Shown here: positions 17,063 to 22,405 of the stretch, piece by piece
Layout of the letters: each line of letters starts with the position of its first letter
Position numbering within the stretch: position 1 is the first letter of the stretch
Notes under the pieces: model-generated
Seen by the model: only the letters and a program-made list of their open reading frames with translations
The model's database searches: none
What the model was told of the DNA's origin: nothing
Made by a program: the position numbers and the translations under genes
Source: a virus
IMG/VR virus record: IMGVR_UViG_3300037070_004891
Coordinates: 1-22,405 of that record
DNA length: 22,405 nt
Strand: one strand, 5' to 3'

Positions 17063-17422
17063 ATGCCAGAAATCTGGACAGGCAATTCCGCGCACCGGAA
17101 GAATCCGGGGCCCCCGCCGAACCTGGCGGGAACCACACGGGGCCCGGACCCTGCCACGTGTGCCCGACTCGGAGGGAAAAGGGTGATGCCCCGGGAAATC
17201 CAGCATTACGACATGTCCGGCAGACCGCTGCTGGACGACGCGGGCCGCCCGGTGGTGACGCTCCACTACACCATCACCGAAGTGGCCGAAGCCATCGGGG
17301 TGCACCGGTCCACGGTGCTCCGGATGGCGGAACGCGGAGACGTGGCAACGGACCTGATCGGGTCCCGGTGGTACGTCTCCGGTACGGAGTTGGCCCGCCT
17401 CACCGCTGAAGGTCTGTGGTGA
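17063..17422 (+). CDS. Excisionase/MerR-like HTH DNA-binding protein
   Basis: The C-terminal 60 residues hold a winged/MerR-type helix-turn-helix (TITEVAEAIGVHRSTVLRMAERGDVATDLIGSRWYVSGTELARL). This is the pattern of excisionases, recombination directionality factors and small Cro-like regulators. Two starts are possible. ATG 17063 (119 residues, SD AGGAG at 17052-17056) adds a Pro/Gly-rich N-terminus. ATG 17186 (78 residues, SD GGAGGG at 17171-17176) gives the core domain. Both have good SD sites, so two forms may be made. It is the first gene of the forward right-arm operon, divergent from the repressor candidate, and overlaps the exonuclease gene. Confidence 0.75.
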   Translation: MPEIWTGNSAHRKNPGPPPNLAGTTRGPDPATCARLGGKRVMPREIQHYDMSGRPLLDDAGRPVVTLHYTITEVAEAIGVHRSTVLRMAERGDVATDLIGSRWYVSGTELARLTAEGLW

Positions 17423-18195
17423 GCGGGATGGCTTCACGGGTTGTTTTCACGGAGGGCCGGCACACGTACTCCCTTGACGGGAAGTGGGTGCCGGGTGTGA
17501 CAACGGTGGCGAAGTTGGCCACAGGATCGGGCGGCTTGATCAACTGGGCCGCCCGGTCCGCCGCACAGTGGGCGGCCGCAAACCGGGAACTGTACGACCA
17601 ACTGGGCGAAGACGCGTGGGTGGCACAAGCCACGAAGGCATCGGAGCGGATCAGGGACGAAGGTGCCGCCCGCGGGACCCGGCTGCACACCATGGCCGAA
17701 GCGCTGCTGTACGGGGACGCGCTCCCCGAGCTGGACGCGGACGGGGTGCCGATCCCTGACGAAGAGCGCCGATCCGCACAGCAAATGGCCCGCTTCATGG
17801 ACGCCCACCGGCTGGAGCCGGTGTGCCACGAAGCCATCGTCTTCCACGAAGAGCACCGGTGGGCCGGCCGGCTGGATGCCATCGCTGACCTGGCGGACGG
17901 CCGCCGGTGGCTGCTGGACTGGAAGACCGGGGCATCCGGTATCTGGCCGGACACCGCGCTCCAGTTGGCCGCCTACAGGCACGCGTCCCACATTTGTGTC
18001 CGGGACCGTGACCTACTGATGACGCCCGTTTCGGAGGCGGCCGCGGTGTGGATCAGACCCGACTCATGGCAACTGATTCCGGTGCTGACGGACGCGGACG
18101 CGTACGCCGCGTTTCGGTCCGCCCTGGGCGCGTACACGTGGGCGAACCGGCACCGCCGGGACGCGGTGGGGGCTCCCCTCCCGGTGCCGGCATGA
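17419..18195 (+). CDS. RecB/Cas4-like PD-(D/E)XK exonuclease
   Basis: The 258-residue protein is the likely 5'-3' exonuclease partner of the RecT-like protein next to it. Motifs: GTRLHTMAEALL (His90, Glu94), GRLDAIADL (Asp153), LLDWKTG (Asp167, Lys169) and QLAAY (Gln182, Tyr186). These form the complete RecB-family nuclease signature. No Cas4-type FeS cysteine cluster is seen. GTG 17419 overlaps the HTH stop (GTGA) with GAAGG at 17408-17412; ATG 17428 and GTG 17416 are alternatives. The end overlaps the next gene (ATGA). Strongly supported. Confidence 0.88.
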   Translation: MSGMASRVVFTEGRHTYSLDGKWVPGVTTVAKLATGSGGLINWAARSAAQWAAANRELYDQLGEDAWVAQATKASERIRDEGAARGTRLHTMAEALLYGDALPELDADGVPIPDEERRSAQQMARFMDAHRLEPVCHEAIVFHEEHRWAGRLDAIADLADGRRWLLDWKTGASGIWPDTALQLAAYRHASHICVRDRDLLMTPVSEAAAVWIRPDSWQLIPVLTDADAYAAFRSALGAYTWANRHRRDAVGAPLPVPA

Positions 18196-19316
18196 CCATG
18201 GAACTGAGGGACGAAGCCGGGCTGGCCCGGTGGGTGGGTGTGCTGGTGCCGGCGTCACAGTTGGCGGAACGGATTGCCGGTACGGAGTTTGTGCCCACCG
18301 CCATGCGTGGCAAGCCGGACGTGGTGACGGCCGCCATCATGTACGGCGACGAAATCGGGGTGGGCCCGATGCAGGCACTGGCCGGCATCCACGTGGTGGA
18401 GGGCCGCCCGCAACCGTCCGCGGAACTTATGCGGGCACTGATCCTCCGGGACGGGCACAGCATCACCGTCCACGAAGCCACCGGGGACCGGTGCCGTATC
18501 TCCGGGCTCCGTGCTGGCCGCCCGGAATCGGAGCGCGCCTATGTGGAGTGGACCAAGGAAATGGGCCGGGCCGCGGGGCTGCTGGGCCGGAGCAACTGGC
18601 AGCGATACCCGCGGGCCATGCTGCTGGCCCGGGCCACGTCCGACCTGGCGCGGATGCTGTTCCCGGACGTGGTGAAGGGGCTGTCCTATGTGGCGGAGGA
18701 TTCTGCCGCGGATGACAGCGCGTGGGCCGGCGTCACGGAGCCCGAGCTGGAAGCCCCGAAGCCTGCCCGTAAGGCTGTGCAGCGGAAGACCCGCCCCCGG
18801 GCGAAGCCTGACACCGAAGACGTGGCGCTACCGGACGCTGGTCCCCCCCCGCCGGTAGCGCCACCCCCGGACCGGCCGGCAACCGAAGACGTGCCCCTAC
18901 CGGGCACGGAGCCGGAGCCGGCCCGGTCCGTGGACCCGCCCCCACCATCGGAAGCGGTGGAAGACCCGCCCGCGGACCGGTTCGGAATCGACGCACAGCC
19001 CGAACCTGGGCCCGAAGAGCCCGTCCCCGGGGCCGGGGAACGATCCATAGCCCCACCGGTGCTCCGGGCCCTACACGCCCGGCTAGGGAAGGTGCTGGGC
19101 CACGGCACCGATGACCACGTGACCCGGGAAGAGAAACTGGCACTGGTGTCCGCGGTGGTGGGCCGGCTGGTGGACTCCACCGGCAACCTGACCCGGGCGG
19201 AGGGCTACCGGGTGCTGGATTTCCTGACCGCCTGTGAAGCCGGGGAAGCCACGTGGGAAGTGGACGACGAAACTGGCGTCTACCACGTGCTGGACCTGCG
19301 GGAGCCGCCGGCATGA
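18192..19316 (+). CDS. RecT-like single-strand annealing protein
   Basis: The 374-residue protein likely anneals ssDNA made by the adjacent exonuclease. The first 175 residues follow the actinophage RecT-like pattern: AAIMYGDEIGVGPMQALAGIHVVEGRPQPSAELM, then WQRYPRAMLLARATSDLARMLFPDVVKGLSYV. A long Pro/Glu/Asp-rich linker (about 185-285) leads to a small helical C-terminal domain (VLRALHARLGKVLGHG, LTRAEGYRVLDFLTACE) common in this family. ATG 18192 overlaps the exonuclease stop. The exonuclease-annealase pair is the Red-like recombination module. Confidence 0.8.
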   Translation: MTMELRDEAGLARWVGVLVPASQLAERIAGTEFVPTAMRGKPDVVTAAIMYGDEIGVGPMQALAGIHVVEGRPQPSAELMRALILRDGHSITVHEATGDRCRISGLRAGRPESERAYVEWTKEMGRAAGLLGRSNWQRYPRAMLLARATSDLARMLFPDVVKGLSYVAEDSAADDSAWAGVTEPELEAPKPARKAVQRKTRPRAKPDTEDVALPDAGPPPPVAPPPDRPATEDVPLPGTEPEPARSVDPPPPSEAVEDPPADRFGIDAQPEPGPEEPVPGAGERSIAPPVLRALHARLGKVLGHGTDDHVTREEKLALVSAVVGRLVDSTGNLTRAEGYRVLDFLTACEAGEATWEVDDETGVYHVLDLREPPA

Positions 19317-19549
19317 CCGGGGACCCGCTGGACGTGTGGTGCCCGATCTGTCAGGCGGGCCCGGCCGAACGGTGCCGGTCTGTGCTGATCGGGCTGGACC
19401 CGATGCGGACACTGGTGCACCGTGCCCGAGCTGTGGACGCGGCCCCGGCCCCGGCCGGCGTGTGCCAGAACTGTGGCAACGAAGACGCGGACGAAGTGCT
19501 GGCCCTGTGCCGGCCCTGTGCGGAGTCCATCCCGGACGTGGCGACATGA
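19313..19549 (+). CDS. Phage zinc-binding protein (CPxC...ERC...H type)
   Basis: The 78-residue product has WCPICQAGPAERCRS, a later H-x2-R, and then CQNCG and CRPC pairs. The first part matches the small phage zinc-finger unit C-P-x-C-x-A-x-P-x-x-x-C...H-x2-R. The second part is an extra ribbon. The same two-part plan recurs in the 19886 gene, so the two look like paralogues. ATGA overlaps tie it to the annealing protein before and the resolvase after. It probably binds nucleic acid, role unknown. Confidence 0.7.
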   Translation: MTGDPLDVWCPICQAGPAERCRSVLIGLDPMRTLVHRARAVDAAPAPAGVCQNCGNEDADEVLALCRPCAESIPDVAT

Positions 19550-20540: not shown

Positions 20541-21573
20541 TGTCGGGGCCCTGTTTGCCGGGACAGGCGCGCTGGAGCTGGCGCTGGCGGACGTGTTCCC
20601 CAACACCCGCACCGTGTGGACCGCGGACAGCAACCGCAACGCGGCCGCGGTGCTCGGAGCCCGGTTCCCCGGAGCCCCGAACCTGGGGGACGTGTCCCGG
20701 GCACGGTGGGACCGTGTGGAGCCCGTGGACATACTCACCGGCGGCTTCCCCTGTCAGGATTTGTCCGTGGCCGGCAACCGGGACGGGCTCACCGCCGGCA
20801 CCCGGTCCGGGGACATGTGGACGTGGATGGCCACCGCGGTGGACCGCCTACAGCCCGGGCTGGTGGTCATAGAAAATGTGCGCGGACTACTCACCGCAAC
20901 GGCACATAGCCCGGTGGAACCCTGCCCGATCTGTATGGGAAACCACGGACGCCCAAATCTGCGGGCACTGGGCGCTGTACTCGGAGATTTGGCCGGCATG
21001 GGGTATGACGCACGATGGGGAGGCATCCACGCTGCCGCCGTGGGAGCACCCCACCTACGCTTCCGCGTCTTCGTTGTTGCCCACCCCCACGGTTCAGGAT
21101 GGGGAGAACAATGGGGGCCCGTCCCAGTACGAACGGAACACCCTCCCCCTGAATGCACGGGTGAACCGGCTGGACCCGTAACCCTGCTCCCCACACCCGT
21201 CGTCAACGACATGGGGGCCGGGAAGACGGTGGACGAATGGGACGCGTGGACAGACACCATGTTGGCCACCACCACCGCCGGCAACGGGCACGGCCCGTCC
21301 CTGTCCGTGGAAGCGATCCGGCCTGGCTGGGGCCGGTACGCGGAAGCGGTCCACCGGTGGGAACACCTGACCCGCCCGGCACCGGAACCCACCGAGCTGG
21401 GCCCCGAAGGTCCATGGCTGTCCGCCCGCTTCGTGGAATGGATGATGGGGCTCCCGGACGCATACGTAACCGGGGTATCGAACGTCTCCCGGTCCGCCAT
21501 GCTCCGGCTACTGGGCAACGGGGTAGTGCCCCAACAGGCTGCCGAAGCGGTACGCCGGCTGCTGGCGGTCTGA
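20533..21573 (+). CDS. C5-cytosine DNA methyltransferase
   Basis: The 346-residue enzyme would methylate cytosine C5 using S-adenosylmethionine, probably to protect phage DNA from host restriction. Visible motifs: I LFAGTGALEL (7-16), IV GGFPCQDLS with catalytic Cys74, VI ENVRG (114-118), VIII VGAPHLRFRVFVVAHP (170-185), and IX/X LLGNGVVPQQAAEAV near the end. A CPICMG Cys pair follows motif VI. GTG 20533 is chosen because motif I should be near the N-terminus; GTG 20491 is open in the same frame. From about 20880 to 21180 its third-position GC falls sharply, where another frame carries a second conserved-looking reading. The target site cannot be read. Confidence 0.88.
   Translation: MPNVGALFAGTGALELALADVFPNTRTVWTADSNRNAAAVLGARFPGAPNLGDVSRARWDRVEPVDILTGGFPCQDLSVAGNRDGLTAGTRSGDMWTWMATAVDRLQPGLVVIENVRGLLTATAHSPVEPCPICMGNHGRPNLRALGAVLGDLAGMGYDARWGGIHAAAVGAPHLRFRVFVVAHPHGSGWGEQWGPVPVRTEHPPPECTGEPAGPVTLLPTPVVNDMGAGKTVDEWDAWTDTMLATTTAGNGHGPSLSVEAIRPGWGRYAEAVHRWEHLTRPAPEPTELGPEGPWLSARFVEWMMGLPDAYVTGVSNVSRSAMLRLLGNGVVPQQAAEAVRRLLAV
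20876..21181 (+). CDS. Alternate-frame ORF within methyltransferase with methyltransferase-tail motifs
   Basis: In the +1 frame, ATG 20876 opens a 101-residue ORF. It contains RWNPARSVWETTD, ALYSEIWPAWGMTHDGEAS, SSLLPTPTVQDGENNGG and YERNTLPLNARV. These recall the tail region found after motif VIII in many phage C5 methyltransferases. From 20942 to 21181 its third-position GC is 65 of 80 codons, against 44 of 80 for the methyltransferase frame over the same bases, while adjoining methyltransferase codons reach about 90-100%. No clear SD precedes the ATG. It may be a real overprinted product, a frameshift product, or a relic of rearrangement. Confidence 0.45.
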   Translation: MCADYSPQRHIARWNPARSVWETTDAQICGHWALYSEIWPAWGMTHDGEASTLPPWEHPTYASASSLLPTPTVQDGENNGGPSQYERNTLPLNARVNRLDP

Positions 21574-22009: not shown

Positions 22010-22078
22010 CCCTCTATCAAGAACAAGAGAACAACCAAGATGGGGTGCTGTGGTCTGTCAACCCACCGTCCCTCCACA

Positions 22079-22101
22079 GTTGTTGCTATCAGACAAACAA
22101 C
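22079..22101. promoter_or_regulatory. GTTGTT-N11-AACAAC dyad upstream of HNH
   Basis: A perfect 6-bp dyad in an AT-rich stretch 18 bases before the HNH start. Its right arm context CAGACAAAC resembles GAGACAAAAC in the dyad at 13539-13560. It could be an operator or part of a promoter for the HNH/terminase genes. No clear -35/-10 pair is seen. Confidence 0.3.
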
Positions 22102-22118
22102 AGGACCACACTCCGACC

Positions 22119-22405
22119 ATGGCCCAACGTAAGTCCAGCAATCAGGTGATCGCTGGACAACGGGTAACCCTCACCCAATGGCGGGCCCTACGCAGACGCT
22201 GGCAAGCCCGCCTCCCCCAGCCCTGCCCCCGCTGCTCCCAACCCGTACAACCCGGGGACGACTGGCACCTAGACCACGTGGGCGATCCCGTTGCCCTAGG
22301 TGGAAACACCGTGGACATACGACCAGCACACGCAACCTGCAACACCCGAGCTGGTGGCCAACTAGCACAACAACTAGCCGCCCTGGGCCGCGAAACTGCA
22401 CGGAT
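22119..22405 (+). CDS. HNH endonuclease (3' end beyond window)
   Basis: The visible 95 codons encode a small HNH nuclease. It has a CPRC zinc knuckle pair, the LDHVGD motif (catalytic His), ALGGN, and RPAHATCNTRAGG, which is the full HNH core. Such genes lie next to terminase in many cos phages and assist DNA cleavage during packaging. The frame is still open at base 22405. If the window is circular it would read on to a stop at 155-157 and overlap the terminase start. No good SD is seen before ATG 22119. Confidence 0.85.
   Translation, partial: MAQRKSSNQVIAGQRVTLTQWRALRRRWQARLPQPCPRCSQPVQPGDDWHLDHVGDPVALGGNTVDIRPAHATCNTRAGGQLAQQLAALGRETAR

Follow-up and report, generated by a model that had tools for sequence, protein, structure and literature searches.

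The locus analysed here raises the question of whether the same bases can encode two proteins in different frames, both of them maintained by selection. It lies at the right end of the window, by which we mean the whole stretch of 22,405 nucleotides that was analysed, where a cytosine methyltransferase gene overlaps an open reading frame (ORF) in the +1 frame (Table 1). We refer to the main-frame product as alpha and to the +1-frame product as beta. A sequence-only reading had proposed that both frames are selected, as codon choice in the overlap appeared to follow the alternate frame, and the counts on which it relied were reproduced. Between 20941 and 21180, GC at third codon positions (GC3) is 44/80 in the main frame and 65/80 in the +1 frame, with 47/80 in the third frame, and the main frame is high on both flanks (20/20 at 20761-20820 and 18/20 at 21181-21240). 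The +1 ORF with its peptides, and the methyltransferase motif VIII that the main frame carries inside the overlap, were also found as that reading had described them.

In profile searches, alpha matched Pfam PF00145 (1.6e-29, spanning motifs I-VIII), phrog_363 (3.7e-58, residues 16-358) and the NCBIfam dcm superfamily, the last at 2.9e-25, which is under the cut-off of that model. Its conserved start is probably GTG 20533. Upstream of the methyltransferase, genes for a phage exonuclease (phrog_298) and a RecT-like annealing protein (phrog_4171) occupy 17416-19316, an early recombination region. A small ORF at 19253-19549 has a weak Phage_zn_bind_8 match just under the cut-off, and an HNH-endonuclease-like ORF (22050-22403) leaves the record at its right end.

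Table 1. Positions of the methyltransferase gene, the overlapping ORF and their parts in the window
Feature	Positions	Strand	Remarks
IMG/VR virus record IMGVR_UViG_3300037070_004891 (the window)	1-22,405		GC 68%
Alpha, C5-cytosine DNA methyltransferase, single ORF, 360 aa	20491..21573	+	motifs I, IV (PCQ), VI, VIII, IX and X in order
Shine-Dalgarno-like GGTG (weak), 5' of ATG 20876	20860..20875	+	4-nt match, spacing 10
Motif VI (ENV) of alpha, where the overlap begins	20872..20886	+	
Beta, +1-frame overlapping ORF, 101 aa	20876..21181	+	ATG start, TAA stop (21179-21181)
Beta core (IARWNPARSVWET ... YSEIWPAWGMTHDGEASTLP), predicted small beta-sheet domain	20906..21037	+	AlphaFold2, homologue alignment
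Motif VIII of alpha, VGAPHLRFRVFVVAHP	21040..21087	+	overprinted by beta PWEHPTYASASSLLPTP
Beta tail module LLPTPTVQDGENNGGPSQYERNTLPLNA, target-recognition type, read in the +1 frame	21074..21157	+	
Motif IX of alpha, LSARFVEWMMGLPDAYV, 3' of the overlap	21418..21468	+	aligns with a conserved segment of split-type ORF B
Motif X of alpha, LGNGVVPQQA	21511..21540	+	GNGV invariant in split-type ORF B

Homologues of the +1 product are numerous. A tblastn search returned 207 phage records, mostly from Mycobacterium, Arthrobacter and Gordonia phages, and in the six records fetched first the match lies directly over motif VIII of the other frame. Arthrobacter phage Juno112 and Mycobacterium phage Phanphagia carry two overlapping annotated 'DNA methylase' genes. 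The first ends a short way past motif VIII; the second (ORF B) begins inside it, in the +1 frame, and carries the remainder. When viral sequences were scanned with the beta core alone, all 80 loci recovered had an open alpha frame over the same bases with ENV upstream; motif VIII matches the pattern in 70 of them and is a GAAH variant in nine, while one contig ends too early. A free-standing origin of the beta core was rejected, as none of these 80 matches lies outside an open alpha frame. Because motif VIII is common to all C5 methyltransferases, we infer that alpha is the ancestral frame and that beta was overprinted on it. Beta also matches phrog_1008 (3e-13, profile positions 71-150), and positions 159-319 of the same profile match the C-terminal part of alpha; this profile, listed in PHROGs as 'DNA methyltransferase' with 329 positions and marked as neither overlapping nor a second subunit, therefore models ORF B of split loci. 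The ORF B of Juno112 matches it at 2.7e-63 over 71-321.

Four gene layouts occur across phages and Actinobacteria. In the split layout (about 37 tree rows, including Juno112 and Phanphagia), alpha ends 7-41 residues after motif VIII and the +1 ORF B comprises the target-recognition region and motifs IX and X. In a second, nested layout, motif IX is read with beta and motif X with alpha (L009, L011-L018 and Paenibacillus phage Jacopo gp56/gp57). A third, found in most chromosomal actinobacterial loci, nests a long beta in a complete alpha. The fourth, to which the window belongs together with prophi104-2, ChadMasterC and others, nests a short beta, and is represented by 15 tree rows from both phages and bacterial genomes. 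On a tree of the non-overlapping region, which is poorly resolved and places the window on a long branch, the layouts require about 15 changes. Swaps of LPTPT...D modules whose lengths are not multiples of three may have caused such switches. Indels and module exchange 3' of the overlap would set which of the two polypeptides contains motifs IX and X; in the window it is alpha, and beta is left as a short putative partner of 101 aa.

Several of these loci deserve mention in their own right. The Jacopo locus (L294; 718-1773 and 920-1624) places a 234-aa gene entirely within the gene of a 351-aa methyltransferase, in its +1 frame. The inner gene begins far ahead of motif VI, differs in its N-terminal segment and ends with motif IX, and with a GC content of 44% it is not a GC-rich artefact. 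In L009 and L011, a THTHTHTH run directly ahead of the PCQ motif of the alpha ORF reflects a short tandem repeat of CA type, possibly a phase-variable tract. In Gordonia phage McKinley (MK977702.1, L181; 1210-1617), the beta frame is annotated instead of alpha, as gp4 'hypothetical protein', and in Mycobacterium phage Doomphist (L182; 1204-1941, gp73/gp74) the beta frame was called across the overlap and alpha is truncated. Methyltransferase annotation in such phages is unreliable. Gordonia phage Hans (L183; 733-1188) has an annotated LAGLIDADG endonuclease gene in the methyltransferase locus just 5' of the beta ORF, consistent with the lone LAGLIDADG insertions described previously (PMC11855218).

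Is the +1 frame itself under selection? Openness alone is uninformative in the window, where long spurious ORFs are common and 60% of synonymous shuffles, which preserve the alpha protein and the codon usage of each gene, are also stop-free. The +1 ORF of the window is notable for the content of its frame, and not for being open. Scored with a profile built from split loci only, without the window, its translation reached 93.3, compared with 17.2 +/- 12.7 for 5000 shuffles (maximum 61.8; z = 6.1), none of which attained the observed value. To this we can add 80 viral loci (L020-L099) that were fetched by main-frame peptide patterns only, and thus were not chosen for their +1 frame; with the loci collected earlier, they were thinned to 53 non-redundant ones (under 85% identity). 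All 53 score z > 2.8 in the overlap with a +1 profile from split loci, whether alpha is short or long. They contain no +1 stop in the overlap, where about 95 would be expected, and 143 in the upstream control region, where shuffles predict about 180; the loci share ancestry and so cannot be counted as independent trials, but the control region has that ancestry too and shows little depletion. Larger and redundant sets gave 0 stops against 156 expected (82 viral loci) and 6 against 54 (72 bacterial loci), with stops in the third frame near expectation.

The main frame bears the complementary mark. Across the 53 loci, codon identity at shared residues exceeds expectation 1.69-fold in the overlap, against 1.09-fold upstream of it, so that synonymous variation is reduced only within the overlap; the rise sets in at ENV, with synonymous constraint from about 10 codons downstream, and constraint is also present in AT-richer loci (control GC3 0.48). 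The ratio of differences between codon positions, 1.49 in the overlap against 1.73 in the control, has overlapping intervals and does not discriminate at these distances; the nearest relative of the window reaches at best 56% over the tree columns. A chance open frame in a GC-rich genome was excluded by the conserved content of the frame together with the AT-richer relatives. The overprinting that the sequence-only reading had suggested is thus supported on each of these counts: the +1 translation has homologues, its frame lacks stops in relatives, and the main frame varies less at synonymous positions.

The 3' part of beta shows the effect most clearly. Over the tail module, identity between the window and its 18 closest loci (L008-L020, L059, L068, L078, L105 and L002) is 69-86% in the +1 frame and 15-47% in the main frame, which forms a poorly conserved linker there, and the differences are concentrated at the third codon position of beta. 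In L010, this module falls in the main frame of the methyltransferase; it is therefore a target-recognition-type module able to sit in either frame. The +1 peptides had been likened to the tail segments of phage C5 methyltransferases. This calls for one correction, since they are not tail segments in general. In split or nested C5 methyltransferases the second polypeptide starts with the beta core, and it is to this start that the peptides correspond, with one LPTPT...D target-recognition module after it. Judged by sequence comparison, the locus is a same-strand overlapping gene pair with conservation in both frames, the overlap being an ancient and obligatory feature of the methyltransferase family.

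Structure prediction gives some indication of what the +1 frame encodes. An AlphaFold2 model of the window product, computed with 80 homologues, has mean pLDDT values per block of 85-96 at residues 11-50 and low confidence in the remainder. Beta strands are predicted at residues 9-15, 20-23, 43-46 and 49-52, and W14, W21, G43 and G48 are nearly invariant in the homologue alignment. The N-terminal part of a split-type ORF B was likewise modelled as confident and strand-rich. On these models, we are confident in predicting that the beta core is a small beta-sheet protein domain. It corresponds to no Pfam or NCBIfam model; a search by sequence found no solved relative of beta, only antibody matches at E 0.4, and structural comparison with the PDB gave no fold match (best Foldseek E 1.9; no VIA-align Z of at least 2). 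Matches to the beta model in BFVD were other phage beta or ORF B proteins. A likeness between the model of a split-type ORF B and DNMT3 chains, over the C-terminal part of the model, was weak (Z about 3) and was set aside.

Start signals for beta are strongest in chromosomal loci. Among those from Actinobacteria, 51 of 59 have a Shine-Dalgarno match before beta, mostly AAGGAG exactly 6 nt from an ATG or GTG, located inside alpha. In phages the signals are weaker, with at least four matching Shine-Dalgarno bases in 35/48 split loci and 21/26 loci with a complete alpha. In the window, GGTG at 10 nt is the sole ribosome-binding signal and is much weaker than the chromosomal AAGGAG. Because of this difference, independent initiation of beta is well supported for the family, while for the window phage it is uncertain.

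Taken together, we consider it likely that beta is an overprinted second subunit that completes a C5 methyltransferase in trans. Alpha would be the catalytic polypeptide of the C5-cytosine methyltransferase, and beta a small second polypeptide, encoded over motifs VI-VIII and consisting of a beta-sheet core followed by target-recognition-type LPTPT...D modules. Started independently within the alpha gene, beta would bind alpha and complete DNA recognition and activity in trans, like the second subunit of M.EcoHK31I. In split loci, where alpha has neither motif IX nor motif X, an enzyme can form only if ORF B joins alpha. The alpha of the window already has motifs I-X, and the need for beta is not obvious, which is a point against the subunit reading; by analogy with the two-polypeptide precedents, beta would here most likely be a second subunit that aids alpha in recognizing or binding DNA. 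Going one step further, we lean slightly towards a large, unrecognized two-component family of phage and actinobacterial C5 methyltransferases with an obligatory subunit that was overprinted de novo and is required even beside an alpha with motifs I-X. The beta core was never found without the overlap with motifs VI-VIII in this data set.

It might be argued instead that beta worked in a split ancestor until, in this phage, a frameshift fused alpha to the C-terminal half. The +1 ORF would since have gone untranslated, its seeming conservation reflecting the short time elapsed and the shelter given by the main frame. The weak ribosome-binding signal and complete alpha of the window, as well as the repeated changes of layout on the tree, are in line with such a relic. 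However, the 20 non-redundant loci in which alpha continues past motif VIII, the window included, score as highly in the +1 frame as the split loci (mean z 6.4 versus 6.3) and contain no +1 stops where 21.6 would be expected. Moreover, the short beta recurs in phages and in bacteria, and chromosomal relatives with a complete alpha retain AAGGAG-ATG for beta. We therefore regard a relic as unlikely.

Another concern is that a one-base error in the assembly or sequencing of the contig feigns the fusion, the real gene being split and beta continuing into the target-recognition domain (TRD) and motifs IX and X. Indeed, the beta stop (21179) falls within a few codons of the point where conserved TRD sequence re-enters the main frame (21184), and the IMG/VR contig has no second copy with which to compare it. 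Yet the same short-beta layout is found in cultured phages (ChadMasterC and prophi104-2) and in bacterial genomes, which makes such an error quite improbable, and its correction would turn the window into a split-type locus and leave the overlap unaffected. Programmed ribosomal frameshifting, by which alpha and the +1 ORF would be read as one fusion protein, might be suggested by the +1 register of the split ORFs and by the fact that they jointly make up one complete methyltransferase. A frame change late in the overlap, however, would leave the beta core of about 50 codons upstream of it functionless, although it is conserved up to the region of the start codon; in addition, the embedded pairs of Shine-Dalgarno sequence and start codon indicate independent initiation, and in loci with a complete alpha the fusion would lose motifs IX and X. 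We consider this mechanism very improbable. Finally, that the +1 similarity merely mirrors a conserved main-frame protein at high GC, under which long spurious ORFs arise readily, has a negligible chance of being correct, since it does not arise in shuffles that leave the main-frame protein and codon usage intact, AT-richer loci behave alike, and the +1 core was not found in five canonical C5 methyltransferases of the same bacterial genomes.

The family offers a clear and widespread example of a protein domain that arose by overprinting of a catalytic motif and has persisted in phages and bacteria alike, and its layouts illustrate both the splitting and the fusion of overlapping genes. If beta is a second subunit, many methyltransferase genes now annotated as single, as two 'methylases' or in the wrong frame would be alpha/beta pairs, and where phage anti-restriction enzymes are cloned and tested, alpha expressed alone may be inactive. 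In a literature search that covered few subscription journals, we found no account of the overprinted beta core, of its obligatory overlap and embedded start sites, or of the four layouts.

Overlapping two-polypeptide C5 methyltransferases are already known in principle. The beta polypeptide of M.EcoHK31I is reportedly encoded inside alpha in another frame, and Lee, Kam and Shaw are said to have found in 1995 that both polypeptides are required. Alternative-frame ORFs have another precedent in actinobacteriophage methylase genes, the out-of-frame HNH insertion of the ShiLan type. That HNH is a mobile insertion, and most copies lack it. Beta occurs in essentially all members of its family and overprints a catalytic motif; it has no HNH or other Pfam match, and its frame is open in 82 of 82 viral loci. 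In M.AquI, the large subunit carries motifs I-VIII and the small subunit part of the variable region and motifs IX-X, while M.EcoHK31I has motifs I-VIII and X on one polypeptide and motif IX on the other (PMC3404938). The split loci share the motif division of M.AquI, but they differ from it in the +1 overlap across motifs VI-VIII and in the conserved overprinted core of ORF B. The window is not of the M.AquI type, as its alpha carries motifs IX-X. It resembles M.EcoHK31I (and M.EaeI) in layout, in that a catalytic alpha with motifs I-VIII is paired with a putative smaller second polypeptide. When E. coli genomes were searched at the nucleotide level with an L009-type gene, no M.EcoHK31I-like match came up. 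The window shares with M.EcoHK31I a conserved alternative-frame ORF inside alpha, and differs from it in having motif IX in alpha and a shorter beta that ends before that motif. The loci L009, L011-L018 and Jacopo have exactly the motif split and nesting reported for M.EcoHK31I, in which beta carries motif IX and alpha carries motif X.
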